From Actinomycetota bacterium (GTDB lineage: Bacteria; Actinomycetota; Actinomycetes; Mycobacteriales; Micromonosporaceae), in assembly GCA_005885555.1 (NCBI GenBank), contig VAWN01000022.1, positions 11,216-75,215 of the forward strand: a stretch of DNA of 64,000 bases, written 5' to 3'. This document shows positions 45,258 through 51,648 of this stretch, piece after piece (positions within the stretch are counted from its first letter, which is position 1; every line of letters starts with the position of its first letter). The notes beneath the pieces were generated by a model. It did no database searches and was not told where the DNA came from. It saw nothing but the letters and a program-made list of their open reading frames with translations. The position numbers and the translations under genes were made by a program.

Positions 45258-46598
45258 GTGACCGGGACGACGCTCGACGACTATACCGATCGGTACGCCC
45301 AACGAATGCGCGGCATGACCGCGTCCGAGATCCGGGCTCTGTTCGCCGTGACGGCGCGGCCCGAGGTGGTCTCGCTCGCCGGTGGCGCTCCCTTCGTCGC
45401 AGCACTCCCACTCGACGCGGTCGGCGAGATGATGGCCAAGCTCGGCGGCGAGCAGGGCGCGACCACGCTGCAGTACTCCGGCGGGCAGGGCGACCTGGCG
45501 CTGCGGGAGCGGATCTGCGAGGTCATGGCGCTGTCCGGGATCGACGCTTCCACCGGTGCGTCGCCCGACGACGTGGTGGTGACCGTCGGCGGCCAGCAGG
45601 CGCTCGATCTGGTGTCCCGCGTCTTCCTCGATCCCGGCGACGTGGTGCTCGCCGAAGGGCCGAGCTACGTCGGCGCGCTCGGCGTCTTCCAGGCGGCGCA
45701 GGCCGACGTGGTGCATGTACCGATCGACGACGACGGGCTCATCCCGGCCGCGCTCGCCGAGGCGCTGGAGACGGTCGCGCGGGCGGGAAAGCGGGCCAAG
45801 TTCCTCTATACAGTGCCCAACTACCACAATCCCGGGGGAGTCACCCTTTCCTCCGAGCGGCGCGACGAGATCCTCGCGATCGCCGAGCGCGCCCGGCTCC
45901 TCGTGATCGAGGACGACCCGTACGGGCTGCTCGGCTTCAGCGGGGAACCGATGCCCGCGCTGCGCGCCCGGCACCGCGACGGAGTGCTCTACGTCAGCAC
46001 GTTCTCCAAGACCTTCGCGCCGGGTCTGCGGGTCGGTTGGGTACTCGCGCCGCACGCGGTACGCGAGAAGCTGGTCATCGCCTCCGAGGCGCAGATCCTG
46101 TGCCCGAGCATGTTCGCGCAGACGGCGATCGCGACCTACTTCGCGACGATGCCGTGGAAGGAACAGGTCAAGACCTTCCGGCAGATCTATCAGGAGCGCC
46201 GTGACGCGTTGCTGTCCGCGCTGACCGAGCAGATGCCCGCCGGTACCCGCTGGACCCGGCCGGACGGCGGGTTCTACGTCTGGCTGACCCTGCCCGACGG
46301 GCTGCACTCGAAGGAGATGCTGCCGCGGGCGATCGCCGCCCGGGTCGCCTACGTTCCCGGCACCGGGTTCTACGCCGACGGTACCGGTGGCTCCCACCTC
46401 CGCCTGTCGTACTGCTTCCCGACCCCCGAGCGGATCCGCGAAGGGGTACGGCGGCTGGCCGGCGTCATCGAGAAGGAGACGTTGGTACGGGCGGAGTTCG
46501 GCACGGCGGCGGCACCGGCGCCGTCCCGGGTCACCTGGACCCACGCGACCCACCTCGGCCCGGCCGCCGGCCAGGCCCCCGCACCCGGACTGGAATGA
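45258..46598 (+). CDS. PLP-dependent aminotransferase (class I/II)
   Basis: A 446-residue fold-type I aminotransferase. It has VVSLAGGAPFVAALP, VTVGGQQALDLVSRVFLDPGD, FLYTVPNYHNPGGVTLS, LLVIEDDPYGLLGF, the PLP lysine in YVSTFSKTFAPGLRVGWVL, and HLRLSYCFPTPERIREGV near the end. It resembles MocR/AAT-like 2-aminoadipate aminotransferases without the helix-turn-helix domain. GTG 45258 has AGGGAGGG upstream, and the frame before it is not conserved. It overlaps the Ddl-like gene by 4 bases, suggesting a two-gene operon for amino-donor supply, though the substrate is not fixed. Confidence 0.9.
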   Translation: MTGTTLDDYTDRYAQRMRGMTASEIRALFAVTARPEVVSLAGGAPFVAALPLDAVGEMMAKLGGEQGATTLQYSGGQGDLALRERICEVMALSGIDASTGASPDDVVVTVGGQQALDLVSRVFLDPGDVVLAEGPSYVGALGVFQAAQADVVHVPIDDDGLIPAALAEALETVARAGKRAKFLYTVPNYHNPGGVTLSSERRDEILAIAERARLLVIEDDPYGLLGFSGEPMPALRARHRDGVLYVSTFSKTFAPGLRVGWVLAPHAVREKLVIASEAQILCPSMFAQTAIATYFATMPWKEQVKTFRQIYQERRDALLSALTEQMPAGTRWTRPDGGFYVWLTLPDGLHSKEMLPRAIAARVAYVPGTGFYADGTGGSHLRLSYCFPTPERIREGVRRLAGVIEKETLVRAEFGTAAAPAPSRVTWTHATHLGPAAGQAPAPGLE

Positions 46599-47551
46599 TC
46601 CCCGTCATGGAACCCCATGTGCTGATCCTCGCCGGCGGTCTCTCGTACGAGCGCGAGGTGTCGCTCCGCTCCGGCCGCCGGGTACTCGACGCGCTGCGCG
46701 CGGTCGGCGTCGACGCGACGGTACGGGACGCCGACACCACGCTGCTGCCGTCCTTCGCGGAGGTCCGGCCGGACGCGGTCATCATCGCGCTGCACGGCGC
46801 CACCGGTGAGGACGGTTCCCTCCGCGGTGTCCTCGATCTGTGCGGCATTCCCTACGTCGGCTCCGACGCGCAGAGCGCCCGGGTGGCGTGGGACAAGCCG
46901 TCGGCGAAAGCGGTGCTGCGGGAGGCGGGCATCCCGACGCCGGACTGGGTCGCCCTCCCGCACGACCGGTTCTCCGAACTCGGCGCCGGTGCGGTCCTCG
47001 AACGCATCGTCGACCGGCTCGGCCTGCCACTGATGGTGAAGCCGGCACAGGGCGGCTCCGGGCTCGGCGCGGCCGTGGTGCGCGATGCCGGCGAGCTTCC
47101 CGGTGCGATGGTCGGGTGCTTCGCGTACGACCAGACGGCGCTCGTCGAGCGGTACGTCGCCGGGGTGGACATCGCCGTCTCGGTGCTCGACGTCGGGGAG
47201 GGTCCGACCGCGCTGCCGGCCGTGGAGATCGTCCCCCAGAACGGGGTGTACGACTACGCGGCCCGGTACACCGCCGGGCTCACCACCTGGCACGTGCCGG
47301 CCCGGCTCGACGAGGAGATCGCGCAGCGGGTCGCCGTCACCGCGATCGCCGCGCACACCGCCCTCGGGCTGCGCGACCTGTCCCGGGTGGATCTCATCCT
47401 CGACGCGAGCGGCGACGCACACGTGCTCGAAGTCAACGTCGCGCCGGGGATGACCGAGACGTCGCTGCTGCCGATGGCGGTATCCGCGGCAGGGCTGGAC
47501 TTCGGCAAGGTACTCGCGAATCTGGTGACCCGCGCGGTCCAGCGCGGCTGA
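46595..47551 (+). CDS. D-alanine-D-alanine ligase-like ATP-grasp protein
   Basis: A 318-residue ATP-grasp ligase. It has LILAGGLSYEREVSLRSGRRV (Ddl-type N-terminus), IALHGATGEDGSLRGVLDLCGIPYVGS, LMVKPAQGGSGLGAAVV (ATP-binding lysine), TALVERYVAGVDIAV, LDLRDLSRVDLI-like ALGLRDLSRVDLILD, and VLEVNVAPGMTETSLLPMA (Mg-binding Glu and Asn). It could join D-Ala residues or another dipeptide; many genomes carry it here besides the main ddl. It is coupled to the aminotransferase by an ATGA overlap. A perfect palindrome containing parS follows its stop. Confidence 0.88.
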   Translation: MIPVMEPHVLILAGGLSYEREVSLRSGRRVLDALRAVGVDATVRDADTTLLPSFAEVRPDAVIIALHGATGEDGSLRGVLDLCGIPYVGSDAQSARVAWDKPSAKAVLREAGIPTPDWVALPHDRFSELGAGAVLERIVDRLGLPLMVKPAQGGSGLGAAVVRDAGELPGAMVGCFAYDQTALVERYVAGVDIAVSVLDVGEGPTALPAVEIVPQNGVYDYAARYTAGLTTWHVPARLDEEIAQRVAVTAIAAHTALGLRDLSRVDLILDASGDAHVLEVNVAPGMTETSLLPMAVSAAGLDFGKVLANLVTRAVQRG

Positions 47552-47565
47552 ACGACTGAACGGCT

Positions 47566-47597
47566 CCGGGCGATGTTTCACGTGAAACATCGCCCGG
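47566..47597. terminator. 32-bp perfect palindrome with central parS site
   Basis: Bases 47566-47597 form an uninterrupted 32-base palindrome between the convergent Ddl-like and HIT-like genes, followed by ATTCTTTG. Its centre (47574-47589) is TGTTTCACGTGAAACA, the exact consensus ParB-binding parS site. The outer GC-rich bases (CCGGGCGA) extend the symmetry. As RNA it could fold into a long hairpin and act as a bidirectional terminator. The parS identity is strong; the terminator role is inference. Confidence 0.9.
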
Positions 47598-47616
47598 ATT
47601 CTTTGTCGGCCCGGCC

Positions 47617-48351
47617 TCAGGTCACGGGTGCGGCCACGACCGGTAACGAGGTCGGATCGCGTGGCGCCGGTACCGGAGCGGGTGCGGCATGCTCCTCGAC
47701 CGCCGGGCCGGCGACCTCGTCCACGTCGTCGTCGAATCGAATCGGGTTCGAGTCGGTGAGCGTCGCCGGCGCCTGCCACGCGATGCGCGGCGGCTCGGCG
47801 AGTGCCCGGCCGCCGAACTCGGCGAGCCAGGCCGCGACGAGCGCGAGGTTCTCCCGCCACCGTTCCTCGGCGATCGGCGGCAGGATGTCGTCCCACAGCG
47901 ACAGGAACGAACCGCGGAGCTGGAGCTGTCCGTGTGGCCGGGCGAGGAACCACAGATGCAGATGGGCCGCGCCGTCGCCGTACCGGTTCACGTGAACCCG
48001 GGCGACGCCGTCGAGCGACCGGACCGCGCGCTCCAGCCGGACGGTCATCACGCCGAGCTCGGCGGCGAGGAGGTTGGGTAGGTCGCCGAGATCCAGATGC
48101 GATCGGGACTCGAGGATCAGGACCATCGGGAGGCCGGTCGGCTTGTCCATCGCGCGTACCCGCCAGCGATCGCTGACCCAGATGTACGCGTCGTCCTTCG
48201 CGGCGCACGCCACACAGCCGTTGCCGTCCTCGCCCTGCCGTGCGGGCTCGGTCGCGACCACCGGATCCAGCGGCTTGACCCTCAGGTCACCTTCGAACGG
48301 AAAGCTAGGCCAGGAAACAAAATCGGGGAGATCAAGGGGGGCTTCGGGCAC
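47617..48351 (-). CDS. HIT-like protein
   Basis: A 244-residue protein. A region at about 40-175 has the HIT-fold layout: CVACAAKDDAYIWVSDRWRVRAM, GLPMVLILESRSHLDLGDL, and the histidine triad-like VNRYGDGAAHLHLWFLARP (H-L-H-L-W, one histidine short of the canonical triad). A CxxC pair near residue 46 may bind zinc. The C-terminal 60 residues are Pro/Ala/Asp-rich and disordered. It may bind nucleotides, but catalysis is uncertain. It lies 10 bases after the neighbouring GNAT gene on the same strand. Confidence 0.75.
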   Translation of the reverse strand: MPEAPLDLPDFVSWPSFPFEGDLRVKPLDPVVATEPARQGEDGNGCVACAAKDDAYIWVSDRWRVRAMDKPTGLPMVLILESRSHLDLGDLPNLLAAELGVMTVRLERAVRSLDGVARVHVNRYGDGAAHLHLWFLARPHGQLQLRGSFLSLWDDILPPIAEERWRENLALVAAWLAEFGGRALAEPPRIAWQAPATLTDSNPIRFDDDVDEVAGPAVEEHAAPAPVPAPRDPTSLPVVAAPVT

Positions 48352-48361
48352 GAAAAAGACC

Positions 48362-49138
48362 CTAGCGGAGTGCTTCGCCCCTGTCGTCCTCCTTGTGGTT
48401 GGGCCACCACCAAACGGCCTTGCTCACGGCCGTGAAGCCGAACGACTCGTACAGCGGCCGACCCTGGTCGGTGGCGGTCAGCGTGACCGTGTCGTGCGGG
48501 TACCCGCGGAGGATGGCGGTCAGCAGCGCCCGCCCGACGCCGTGGCCACGGTGCTCCGGGAGGGTACCGAACTGGTACAGCCCGAGGGTCGAACCGTCGT
48601 GGTACGTGTACGCGGCCGCGGCCGGCACCCCTTCGCGGTACCCGAGCCAGACCAGCCACCCGTCGATCCCGAGTACCCGCACCGGCTGGATGCGACCGTG
48701 CGGATCCTCCGTGACGGAGGCCGGCGGGAACACCGAGATGAGGATCCGCTCGGCGGCGGCGAGCCGCCCCGGATCCCGGGCCACCACCACCCGAACGTCG
48801 GGAGGCGCCGGACGACCGGGGAGCGGACCGACCGCGCGCGACATCACCGTCATCCGGAACCGCTGATCCAGGCCGCACCCGCTCAGGTCGAGTTCACCGC
48901 TCGGATCCTCGACCACCCGGCGCCTGAAGCCGGACTCCACCAGGACGGTATCCACGATCGACGCGATCGTCGCCGGCCGGTTCACCGAGGGGTCGAGCAC
49001 GATGGCGCGCAGCGCGTGGTACGGCGACGGCGCGACAATCCGCACCTGCGCGTTATCCACAAGGAGGGCGCCGTGCCCCTTGGCAAGGGCCTCCCACATC
49101 GCCGCCGCATTGCGCGCGTGCACCCCGTAATCCGTCAC
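48362..49138 (-). CDS. GNAT-family N-acetyltransferase
   Basis: A 258-residue protein whose C-terminal half is a GNAT domain: LYQFGTLPEHRGHGVGRALLTAIL (acetyl-CoA loop RGHGVG) and TDQGRPLYESFGFTAVSKAVWWW. The N-terminal half (DYGVHARNAAAMWEALAKGHGALLV, quoted in part) is less conserved. GTG 49138 is chosen; the frame is open far upstream into the parB side but lacks similarity there. A perfect DnaA box TTATCCACA lies inside it at 49053-49061. Probably co-transcribed with the HIT-like gene. The substrate is unknown. Confidence 0.8.
   Translation of the reverse strand: MTDYGVHARNAAAMWEALAKGHGALLVDNAQVRIVAPSPYHALRAIVLDPSVNRPATIASIVDTVLVESGFRRRVVEDPSGELDLSGCGLDQRFRMTVMSRAVGPLPGRPAPPDVRVVVARDPGRLAAAERILISVFPPASVTEDPHGRIQPVRVLGIDGWLVWLGYREGVPAAAAYTYHDGSTLGLYQFGTLPEHRGHGVGRALLTAILRGYPHDTVTLTATDQGRPLYESFGFTAVSKAVWWWPNHKEDDRGEALR
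49053..49061 (+). promoter_or_regulatory. DnaA box (TTATCCACA)
   Basis: An exact match to the general DnaA-box consensus, within the GNAT coding region and about 155 bases from a second perfect box on the other strand (49216-49224). Confidence 0.6.
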
Positions 49139-49190: not shown

Positions 49191-49206
49191 GGTTTCACGT
49201 GAAACG
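49191..49206. promoter_or_regulatory. parS site 2
   Basis: GGTTTCACGTGAAACG matches the parS consensus at 14 of 16 positions with the full GTTTCACGTGAAAC core. It lies downstream of parB, between parB and the GNAT gene, and binds ParB. Confidence 0.9.
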
Positions 49207-49304: not shown

Positions 49305-50276
49305 CTATTCCAGCGGGCGTTCCTTTTCCACACCGATGATGCCGACGATACGTTCGAGGTCGTCCACGGTCGCGAACTCGATGGTGATCTTCCCCTTGCT
49401 CCGGCCGATGTCCACCTTGACCCTCGTGTCGAACCGGTCGGAGAGGCGCTCGGCGAGGTCGGCCAGCGCCGGCGCGTGCGGCTTCGCCCGCCGCTTCGGC
49501 GCCGCCTCCTTCGCCGGGCCGTCGGAGAGCGCGAGAGCGACCAGCTCCTCGGTCGCCCGTACCGACAGCCCTTCGGCCACGATCCGCTGCGCGAAGGTCT
49601 CCTGCTGATCGGTATTCTCCAGGCCGAGCAGTGCCCGGGCATGGCCGGCGGACAGCACGCCCGCCGCCACCCGCCGCTGTACCACCGTCGGCAGGTTCAG
49701 CAATCGGATCGTGTTGGAGATCTGCGGGCGGCTGCGGCCGATCCGGCGGGCGAGCTCCTCGTGGGTCGCGCCGAACTCGTCGAGCAGTTGCTGGTATGCG
49801 GCCGCCTCTTCGAGCGGATTCAGGTCGGCGCGGTGGATGTTCTCCAGAAGAGCGTCGCGCAGCATCGCGTCATCGCGGGTGTCCCGGATGATCGCGGGGA
49901 TCGTCTCCCGGCCGAGCGCCTGCGCCGCGCGCCAGCGCCGTTCGCCCATCACGAGTTCGTACCGCTCGGGTCCGGCCTCACGTACCACGATCGGCTGAAG
50001 GAACCCGACCTCCTCGATGGAGGCCTTCAGCTCGTCCAGCGCCTCCTCGTCGAAGACGGTCCGGGGCTGCTTCGGGTTCGCCACGATCCCCTCGACCGGG
50101 ATGTCGGCGAACCGCGCCCCGGGTACCGGAGCCAGGTCCCAGGTCTCGATGGCGGCCGGGGTACCGCCGTCACGCGCGGCCGGTACCGCTACTTCGGGCG
50201 GCGGGGGAGGAGGCGGCGGGGTACTCGGGATCAGCGCGCCCAGCCCCCGGCCGAGCCCGCCACGGACCTTGCTCAC
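49305..50276 (-). CDS. parB: Chromosome-partitioning protein ParB
   Basis: A 323-residue CTP-dependent DNA clamp that loads at parS. A poorly conserved N-terminus ([12 protein letters not shown]) is followed by the CTPase domain ([35 protein letters not shown], quoted in part; [17 protein letters not shown]), a helix-turn-helix (TNTIRLLNL region: [18 protein letters not shown]), [12 protein letters not shown] and a C-terminal dimerisation domain. It overlaps parA by 4 bases. Three parS sites lie within 3.6 kb: one downstream, one after the Ddl-like gene and one inside parA. Confidence 0.97.
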
Positions 50277-51514
50277 GCTCCGGCCTCCCTCACCCGCGCA
50301 CCCCGTTCGGCGATCTCCTGGGCGGCCTCGAAGTAGCTCATGGCGCCCCGGGATCCGGGGTCGTAGGTCATCACCGACTGGCTGTAGCTCGGCGCCTCGG
50401 ACACCCGGACGTTGCGCGGGATGACGGCGTTGAGGACCTTGTCACCGAAGTGGTTGCGGACGTCCTGCTCGACGAGGTCGGCCAGGCGGGTACGCCGGTC
50501 GTACATGGTCAGCAGCACGGTGGAGATGTCCAGCGTCGGGTTCAGGTGCGACCGTACGAGCGCGATGTTGCTCGTCAGCGCCTGCACGCCTTCGAGGGCG
50601 TAGTACTCGCACTGGATCGGGATCAGCACCTCCTGCGCGGCGACGAGCGCGTTGACGGTGAGCAGTCCGAGGGACGGCGGGCAGTCGACGAAGATGTAGT
50701 CGTACTCGACCGGACAGGCCTGGATCGCCCGGGCCAGCCGGGACTCGCGGGCCACCACGGAGACGAGTTCGATCTCGGCGCCGGCGAGGTCGATGGTCGC
50801 CGGTATGCACGACAGGTTCGGGATACCGTCCACCGGCTGGGTCACGTCGACGAGCGGGGCGCCCTCGATGAGGCAGTCGTACACGTCGGGTACCCCGGCG
50901 TGGTGCGGCACGTTCAGACCCGTCGACGCGTTGCCCTGCGGGTCGAGGTCGATCACCAGTACCCGGTTGCCGTGCAGCGCCAGGGCGACCGCGATGTTCA
51001 CCGCGGTGGTCGTCTTGCCGACCCCGCCCTTCTGGTTCGCTACGCAGATGATCCGGCGCCGGACCGGGCGGGGCATGGTGATCTCACCGCTGGGGTTCAG
51101 TATCTCCACGGCCCGCTTCGCCTCCTGTGCCAGCGGTGGATCTTCGGTTTCACGTGAAACAACGACTTCCTTTTCGGGAGTACCCGCCGGGGCATGCGGG
51201 CGAGGAGCCGGCGACATCCGACCGTCGGCGGACGCGGTGTACTCGGCCGACACCCGGTCCCCGGCCGACACCGTCTCCTCGGCGGACGCGATGTCCCCGG
51301 CCGAGTATGACCCGCCGGAGTGCGGCTCGCCCGGGGAGAGCGCGGGGGACTGGTCCATCGCCTGGGATACCGCGGGGATGGGTATCGTCGGTCCGACCGC
51401 GAACCCGGTACCGGTGCGTGGATGGGGGACGGCCTGGGGGTCGGAAGGGACCGGCCAGCCGTTGGGTCCGGGCTGGCTCAGTCGGTAACTGTCGTAGCTG
51501 CCACTCTCGTGCAC
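50273..51514 (-). CDS. parA: Chromosome-partitioning ATPase ParA (Soj)
   Basis: A 413-residue ParA/MinD-type ATPase. It has deviant Walker [52 protein letters not shown] (Walker B), then [20 protein letters not shown]. The first 150 or so residues are an unusually long disordered tail with five hexapeptide repeats starting Ser-Ala (about 51216-51305). A parS site lies in the coding sequence for VVSRETE at 51146-51161. GTG 51514 ([14 protein letters not shown]) is chosen with AGGGA upstream; ATG 51592 is possible. It drives origin segregation with ParB. Confidence 0.95.
51146..51161. promoter_or_regulatory. parS site 3 (inside parA)
   Basis: GGTTTCACGTGAAACA matches parS at 15 of 16 positions and lies within the 5' part of the parA coding sequence. 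Confidence 0.9.
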
Positions 51515-51648
51515 AGTGTCATCCCTGCCCGCTTGAATGGGGTGCGCCCCGCCTCGTTCGCCGTTCGTGTCGCGCCGGCGGGTACGACTCACTGAGGGAA
51601 CCGTACTAGCGATGCGCCGTCAGCGTACGGCGGCCCGCCCAGGCGAAG

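Follow-up and report, generated by a model that had tools for sequence, protein, structure and literature searches.

The chromosomal parS site of the ParABS system is given as a 16-bp consensus, with the 16-bp site standing alone, in the available sections of two reports (PMC7022226, PMC2346475). In Mycobacterium bovis BCG, a parS site overlaps the promoter of gidB (PMC2346475, available part); in Pseudomonas aeruginosa, promoters adjoin parS3 and parS4 (PMC7022226, available part). Transcript 3' ends of Streptomyces clavuligerus have been mapped by Term-seq (PMC8269248). In its accessible sections, this study applied limits for structured and for U-rich ends; 182 of the 535 structured ends were U-rich, and the HS-U-lack class was likened to I-shaped terminators. 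No report of a parS within a terminator was found in the titles and abstract openings of the literature matches listed, which were mainly open papers, and prior notice is possible. The word "terminator" is absent from PMC7022226, PMC8410768, and PMC7083940. In the accessible parts of PMC12779278, PMC5521831, PMC2346475, and PMC7414963, it concerns unrelated matters, in two of them apparently vectors or references.

The window, meaning the whole stretch of 64,000 nucleotides analysed here, contains a parS site within a longer palindrome. An initial annotation had placed an exact parS 16-mer inside a palindrome between two convergent genes, and both the site and its position were borne out by the window scan and the open reading frames. 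The features are as follows:

46595 to 47551, plus strand: D-Ala-D-Ala ligase-like gene (Pfam PF07478, 8.3e-51; PF01820, 4.2e-17), with its stop codon 13 nt upstream of the stem
47565 to 47598, unstranded: 34-bp perfect palindrome TCCGGGCGATGTTTCACGTGAAACATCGCCCGGA, with a predicted 15-pair RNA hairpin closed by an ACGT loop
47574 to 47589, unstranded: exact parS 16-mer TGTTTCACGTGAAACA, 0 mismatches in the window scan, at the hairpin apex
47599 to 47608, plus strand: T-rich tail TTCTTTGTCG 3' of the stem, for transcripts of the plus strand gene
47617 to 48351, minus strand: convergent gene without Pfam match, by eye with a HIT-like HLHLW stretch, stop codon 18 nt from the stem
49191 to 49206, unstranded: second parS, 98 nt beyond the end of the parB reading frame, with 2 mismatches to the 16-mer and without palindromic extension
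49305 to 50276, minus strand: parB (TIGR00180, 205.6 bits, above the cut-off)
50273 to 51592, minus strand: parA, named by eye from its translation, with homologous stretches in 79 of 80 parB loci
51146 to 51161, unstranded: third parS, 1 mismatch to the 16-mer, in the 5' part of the parA reading frame, without extension

With a probability of about 0.7, the two convergent genes would share an intrinsic terminator at their 3' ends, a hairpin with this parS as its tip.

Three parS-like 16-mers with up to 3 mismatches were found in the window, compared with 0.05 expected from shuffles; one alone is exact. The palindrome around it had been described as 32 bp long with 8 bases added on each side. 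It is a perfect palindrome, and its length is 34 bp, consisting of the parS 16-mer and 9 paired bases per side. Nine of the 15 stem pairs are G-C, and the loop has 4 nt. The folding energy of the 34-mer is -27.9 kcal/mol, compared with -3.9 for the 16-mer by itself, and folding of the surrounding 91 nt gives z-scores of -4.8 (plus strand) and -4.1 (minus strand). A terminator-like scan of positions 46500 to 48500 gave the palindrome as the sole match, on the plus strand only (1 match vs 0.3 expected in shuffles). A search of the same region for known Rfam RNA families gave one match up to E 1, at 24.5 bits and thus below the gathering score of 79, and such a family was rejected.

The tails differ between the two strands. 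The 8 nt past the stem contain 6 T on the plus strand (TTCTTTGT) and 2 T on the minus strand (GCCGTTCA). On the plus strand, all parts of an intrinsic terminator are present: a GC-rich stem, a short loop, a U-tract adjoining the stem, and a stop codon 13 nt before it. The canonical bidirectional form, with a U-tract on both strands, is absent, because the minus strand has 2 T in 8. The minus strand has the HS-U-lack or I-shaped form instead, with the -27.9 kcal/mol hairpin lying 18 nt after the stop codon and no U-tract. By the Term-seq limits of S. clavuligerus, the plus strand would be U-rich and the minus strand U-lacking; the structure limit there, in the accessible text, refers to the energy of the 40 nt upstream, and here to the hairpin alone (PMC8269248). 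A T-rich tail and a stop to transcription from both sides had been proposed at the outset. The plus strand has both the tail and the U-tract; the minus strand lacks the tail, and termination there would need a hairpin that acts without a U-tract.

Exact 14-mer parS cores occur three times in the 6.7-Mb genome, all inside 3.6 kb around parB and parA, and none elsewhere. With a 32-position model, the parS at 47574 scores 48.2 bits; the sites at 49191 and 51146 score 21.5 and 19.2 bits, as plain sites do. Since these two are plain, the extension is not a general feature of the parS in this genome. A fourth site (GTTTCACGTGAATC), with one mismatch to the 14-mer, was also seen on a small contig of the same genome (G000:C184:2317-2330). 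That one of the three exact cores is extended would agree with a coincidence, in which the site would be an unremarkable parS, located in a quiet intergenic stretch, that happens to have a GC stem and a T-rich tail. This explanation is barely credible, as it is contradicted by the recurrence, the covariation, and the flank-shuffle test described below.

Recurrence was analysed in several sets of sites. Set A comprises 80 Micromonosporaceae parB loci (one metagenome-assembled) and the window, and was chosen by ParB similarity. Set B represents the genus g15, set C the Streptomyces-like genus g50, and set E all parS of four g50 genomes with fully listed positions. Because sets B, C, D, and F were picked for having palindromes, no prevalence can be read from their rates. 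Set D (8 loci) was kept out of the main tests, because 6 of the 8 loci belong to family f26, in which the 14-mer occurs over 100 times in each of three genomes and may not be parS. It was included in the context comparison with other 14-nt palindromes (sets A-F). Sites were called extended with at least 6 Watson-Crick pairs outward from the 14-mer, and plain with 0-2 pairs; sites with 3-5 pairs were excluded from the tests of convergent position in sets A-D and from the facing-stop and T-tail tests. Sites identical in flanks, stems, or context entered the counts once, and contig-edge sites were excluded from the class tests.

Among the 371 Micromonosporaceae cores of the 80 loci, the uninterrupted pairs beyond the 14-mer number 0 in 272, 1 in 54, 2 in 19, 3 in 8, 4 in 4, 5 in 1, and 6-18 in 13. 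The extended parS form a separate class, and are no mere tail of the distribution. Set A has 14 extended sites in 374 when the window is included (13 of 371 in the 80 loci). Shuffling of the right flanks of 302 distinct set A sites gave 0.4 extended sites as expectation and 5 as the maximum in 2000 trials, compared with the 14 observed. Shuffling of distinct flanks was also applied to set B (14 of 62 sites observed; 3.9 expected, maximum 10), set C (21 of 54; 0.75, maximum 5), and set D (18 of 38; 0.64, maximum 4). A chance palindrome was ruled out by these tests in sets A and C.

A covariance model was built from an alignment of 14 parS-centred palindromes. It matched 125 of 354 Micromonosporaceae genomes at E 0.001, and 50 of 396 evenly drawn Actinomycetota genomes at E 0.0001; 256 of the same 396 contain one or more exact cores. 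Of the g50 genomes, 98 of 101 matched at E 0.0001. The 646 strand matches there represent about 323 sites, compared with 1704 exact cores in the same genomes, which is about 19% of parS. At least 6 uninterrupted pairs are present in 6 of the 62 sites of set E; this fraction is lower because the covariance model takes interrupted stems too. Judged by sequence comparison, fused parS sites are a recurrent class in Actinomycetota, the phylum to which the claim is confined.

Some genomes contain unusually many sites. Three genomes of family f26 (G495, G623, and G698; 3.4-4.0 Mb) have 114, 110, and 135 exact GTTTCACGTGAAAC sites, respectively, with 0 for the reversed-pattern control. The f26 loci with such sites are L247-L250, L252-L255, L257-L260, and L262-L265. 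Among the matches listed, the sites of G495 range from 0.10 to 2.12 Mb, and several pairs are 34-36 bp apart. This abundance is either an extreme spread of parS, or due to a second protein on the same operator. In Micromonosporaceae, the genome G325 has 47 exact parS cores, 26 of them inside 18 kb of contig C16 (~185.7-203.7 kb).

The position of the extended sites was compared with the surrounding genes; some gene calls, including those of the four g50 genomes of set E, came from a codon-usage caller rather than from annotation. Among the distinct sites of sets A-C, 27 of 43 extended and 24 of 301 plain sites are in convergent position (odds ratio 19.5, p 1.8e-15). The corresponding values in set E are 5 of 6 extended sites and 13 of 56 others (p 0.006); set D alone gives no significant difference (3 of 14 extended vs 1 of 14). 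Across sets A-F, parS is extended by at least 6 pairs in 56 of 97 convergent, 31 of 374 tandem, and 2 of 12 divergent positions, and in 4 of 42 inside genes. Other 14-nt palindromes of these sets are so extended in 1 of 12 convergent, 7 of 67 tandem, and 0 of 20 divergent positions, and in 0 of 231 inside genes. The remaining 41 of the 97 parS at convergent junctions are unfused. Unextended parS number 41 in 38.7 kb of convergent gaps and 343 in 332.7 kb of tandem gaps. These densities are about equal; thus, the extension follows convergence, not parS itself.

These counts also bear on neutral growth of the palindrome, by template switching or quasi-palindrome correction, without any termination function. 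The stems are almost purely Watson-Crick, as such growth would produce. Moreover, at the parS that follows parB, the final 7 bases of the left arm are identical in L026 and L067, and the complementary right arm is present in L026 only. However, neutral growth would leave the dependence on context unexplained, with parS extended in 56 of 97 convergent positions vs 4 of 42 inside genes, and other palindromes in 0 of 231 inside genes; nor does it predict T tails on the sense strand. It is highly improbable as an alternative to termination. Mutational palindrome growth may be the origin of the perfect stems, and their context dependence is not explained by it.

Facing stop codons and T tails were compared in sets A, B, C, E, and F. 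A facing stop codon within 100 nt is found at 41 of 42 extended and 28 of 36 plain sites in convergent position, and at 8 of 17 extended and 37 of 277 plain sites in tandem position. The sense-strand T fraction in the 8 nt past the stem is 0.237 at extended and 0.172 at plain convergent sites (p 0.005); it is 0.279 and 0.165 at tandem sites, respectively (p 0.0014). The A fraction in the same 8 nt is 0.141 vs 0.155 (convergent) and 0.088 vs 0.162 (tandem) for extended and plain sites. The limits of the S. clavuligerus Term-seq study were applied to the extended sites. Folding energies of -23 kcal/mol or lower were calculated for 48 of 57 distinct extended sites. At least 3 U in 8 follow the stem at 26 of 97 gene-facing ends, and the other 71 fall short.

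The ends below 3 U of 8 (71 of 97) leave room for another helper. This could be ParB itself, acting as a roadblock that ends transcription, with a hairpin that just aids release or keeps exonucleases off the 3' end; ParB site and hairpin share one centre, as this explanation would have it. However, hairpins of the same kind are often found in convergent junctions without parS in the same loci (set B, 11 of 19; set C, 8 of 16; set D, 3 of 6; though 5 of 74 in set A). The hairpin alone therefore seems to be a usual solution there, and a ParB roadblock is unlikely. In convergent gaps that bear parS, hairpins are present in 24 of 26 (set B), 22 of 23 (set C), 2 of 3 (set A), and 2 of 3 (set D); 42 of these 50 hairpins are parS-centred with the ACGT loop, in sets of which three of the four were picked for such palindromes. 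Hairpins that overlap parS with an offset occur at 15 of 622 distinct sites, compared with 21 of 2488 control places. Thirteen of these 15 are neighbouring parS copies that pair together; the remaining two are L006 and L238.

Two further arrangements were observed. In six g50 loci (L164, L167, L171-L173, and L175), a single convergent junction contains two parS-centred palindromes at a distance of 43-84 bp. Each is near the stop codon of one gene, as though the two genes were served by separate parS-terminators. In several Micromonosporaceae loci (L045:6849, L026:6904, L062:6970, L080:6920, and L066:6967), a parS-centred palindrome starts 13-126 nt past the parB stop codon. By their position, these palindromes 3' of parB may terminate the parAB operon itself.

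The junction of the ligase-like gene and the convergent gene was compared in genus g15, of which 20 of 22 genomes were taken; the convergent gene lay within the stretch in 19. A parS-centred palindrome is present at this junction in the window and in 15 of the 19 testable g15 loci. Twenty-two parS sites with both genes verified, fused or not, were aligned (the window, 19 from g15, L006, and L045), giving 19 distinct rows. Changes on both sides are seen in 11 of the 12 variable pairs. The covariation score is 0.319, compared with 0.115 (sd 0.019) for shuffled rows and at most 0.108 with slid partners; the rows are mostly of one genus, so that the cells are not independent events and the covariation leans largely on g15. 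The initial annotation had named flanks that are not conserved as evidence against its proposal. The letters of the flanks do vary, but their pairing is kept, as the covariation at the junction indicates.

Other loci show different arrangements around these genes. In L022, L104, L112, and L192, a parS-centred palindrome with a different stem lies downstream of the convergent gene, and the ligase-like gene was not found opposite. L045, L147, L156, and L163 have a junction parS without a parS-centred hairpin, and the hairpin of L159 is interrupted. A separate 20-pair hairpin is present in the L045 junction. In Rugosimonospora africana (L006:8735-8780), an offset 15-pair hairpin uses the right half of parS (GAAAC) as its base, with GTTTC at the far end; parS and the hairpin share a third of the site and are not concentric. 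Among the set A loci with both genes, 5 of 62 have a perfect hairpin with arms of at least 8 in the gap. The convergent gene had no match in the sole other genome of the window's genus, which is 77% complete. Among the 20 g15 loci, many (such as L144:5066 and L145:6328) have a further parS at a gene start, which would be that of parA by position; its stem is GAGGCCAAT...ATTGGCCTC. This stem is constant and possibly coding, and is therefore uninformative on covariation.

The flanking bases might also enlarge the ParB site at the DNA level, by flank recognition or as a cruciform, with termination being incidental. The palindrome is the same on both strands, as a DNA site would be. The outward bases +1 to +3 are ATC in 32 of 68 extended flanks of sets B and C and in 18 of 36 of set D, compared with 21 of 100 plain flanks of sets B and C. 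Plain parS of sets B and C likewise favour ATC/GAT flanks, so that the three bases next to the site may contribute at the DNA level. G-U and A-C mismatches, whose balance could tell RNA pairing from DNA pairing, are few and equal in number at tandem sites (3 vs 3). However, set A shows no preference for the ATC flank, and the stems further out diverge with the pairing retained. A role in DNA binding does not predict the concentration at gene 3' ends, or the T tails downstream at tandem sites. These differences make a purely DNA-level role of the extension quite unlikely.

The preferred reading is that of a parS at the apex of a terminator hairpin. In such a process, parS might have become, or been kept as, the hairpin apex at the shared 3' end. 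Fusion may be favoured by parS because it is already a perfect inverted repeat, which gives the stem tip and the 4-nt loop. In double-stranded DNA, the central 16 bp would load ParB. In the transcript of the ligase-like gene, the 34-mer would fold into the 15-pair hairpin followed by a U-rich tail, leading to termination. The opposite transcript would contain the same hairpin without a U-tract, and its termination may be weaker or I-shaped. Selection for termination might extend the stem outward from parS. Form and position, together with the comparison (recurrence, covarying stems, and gene 3' ends), point to an element that may double as a terminator, as was first suggested; termination itself is a prediction. 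The initial annotation also had the element keep polymerases away from the ParB loading site, which it might do. From the sequence data, we infer termination, the binding of ParB at the site, and termination as the selected function.

A broader proposal can be considered, which is possible though doubtful. The parS-terminators might represent a dual DNA/RNA class that couples centromere loading and transcription termination via one palindrome. ParB on parS might raise termination or keep converging polymerases apart; the hairpin might limit polymerase traffic over the loading site; and the segregation state and 3'-end formation near oriC might be interdependent. If such sites are widespread, the removal or relocation of parS in Streptomyces and its relatives can alter transcript ends too, and Term-seq and ParB ChIP-seq data would be best interpreted jointly. 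The roughly one-fifth of parS that is fused in the Streptomyces-like genus may serve as a natural set, with fused and plain sites in one cell, for the study of the interplay between transcription and ParB loading.

In summary, the site in the window resembles the known systems in part. Like other chromosomal parS of ParABS systems, it is an exact 16-mer beside parB, with three copies in 3.6 kb. The described sites are 16 bp long in the available sections of PMC7022226 and PMC2346475, whereas the site here has 9 more paired bases per side, and these would give a long hairpin. The bidirectional and HS-U-lack ends of S. clavuligerus are also similar, being strong hairpins without a U-tract and ends common to genes on opposite strands; in the accessible text, they are discussed for XRE-DUF397 genes, and parS is unmentioned there (PMC8269248). 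As with the gidB parS and parS3/parS4, as described in the available parts of those reports, the parS here shares bases or place with a transcription signal. However, those sites act at transcript starts, whereas the window parS would overlap transcript 3' ends. The element is similar to an intrinsic (Rho-independent) terminator in its GC-rich stem soon after a stop codon, its 4-nt loop, and its U-rich tail on the plus strand. Unlike in such a terminator, the loop and the upper stem are fixed here as parS, and are not free to vary.
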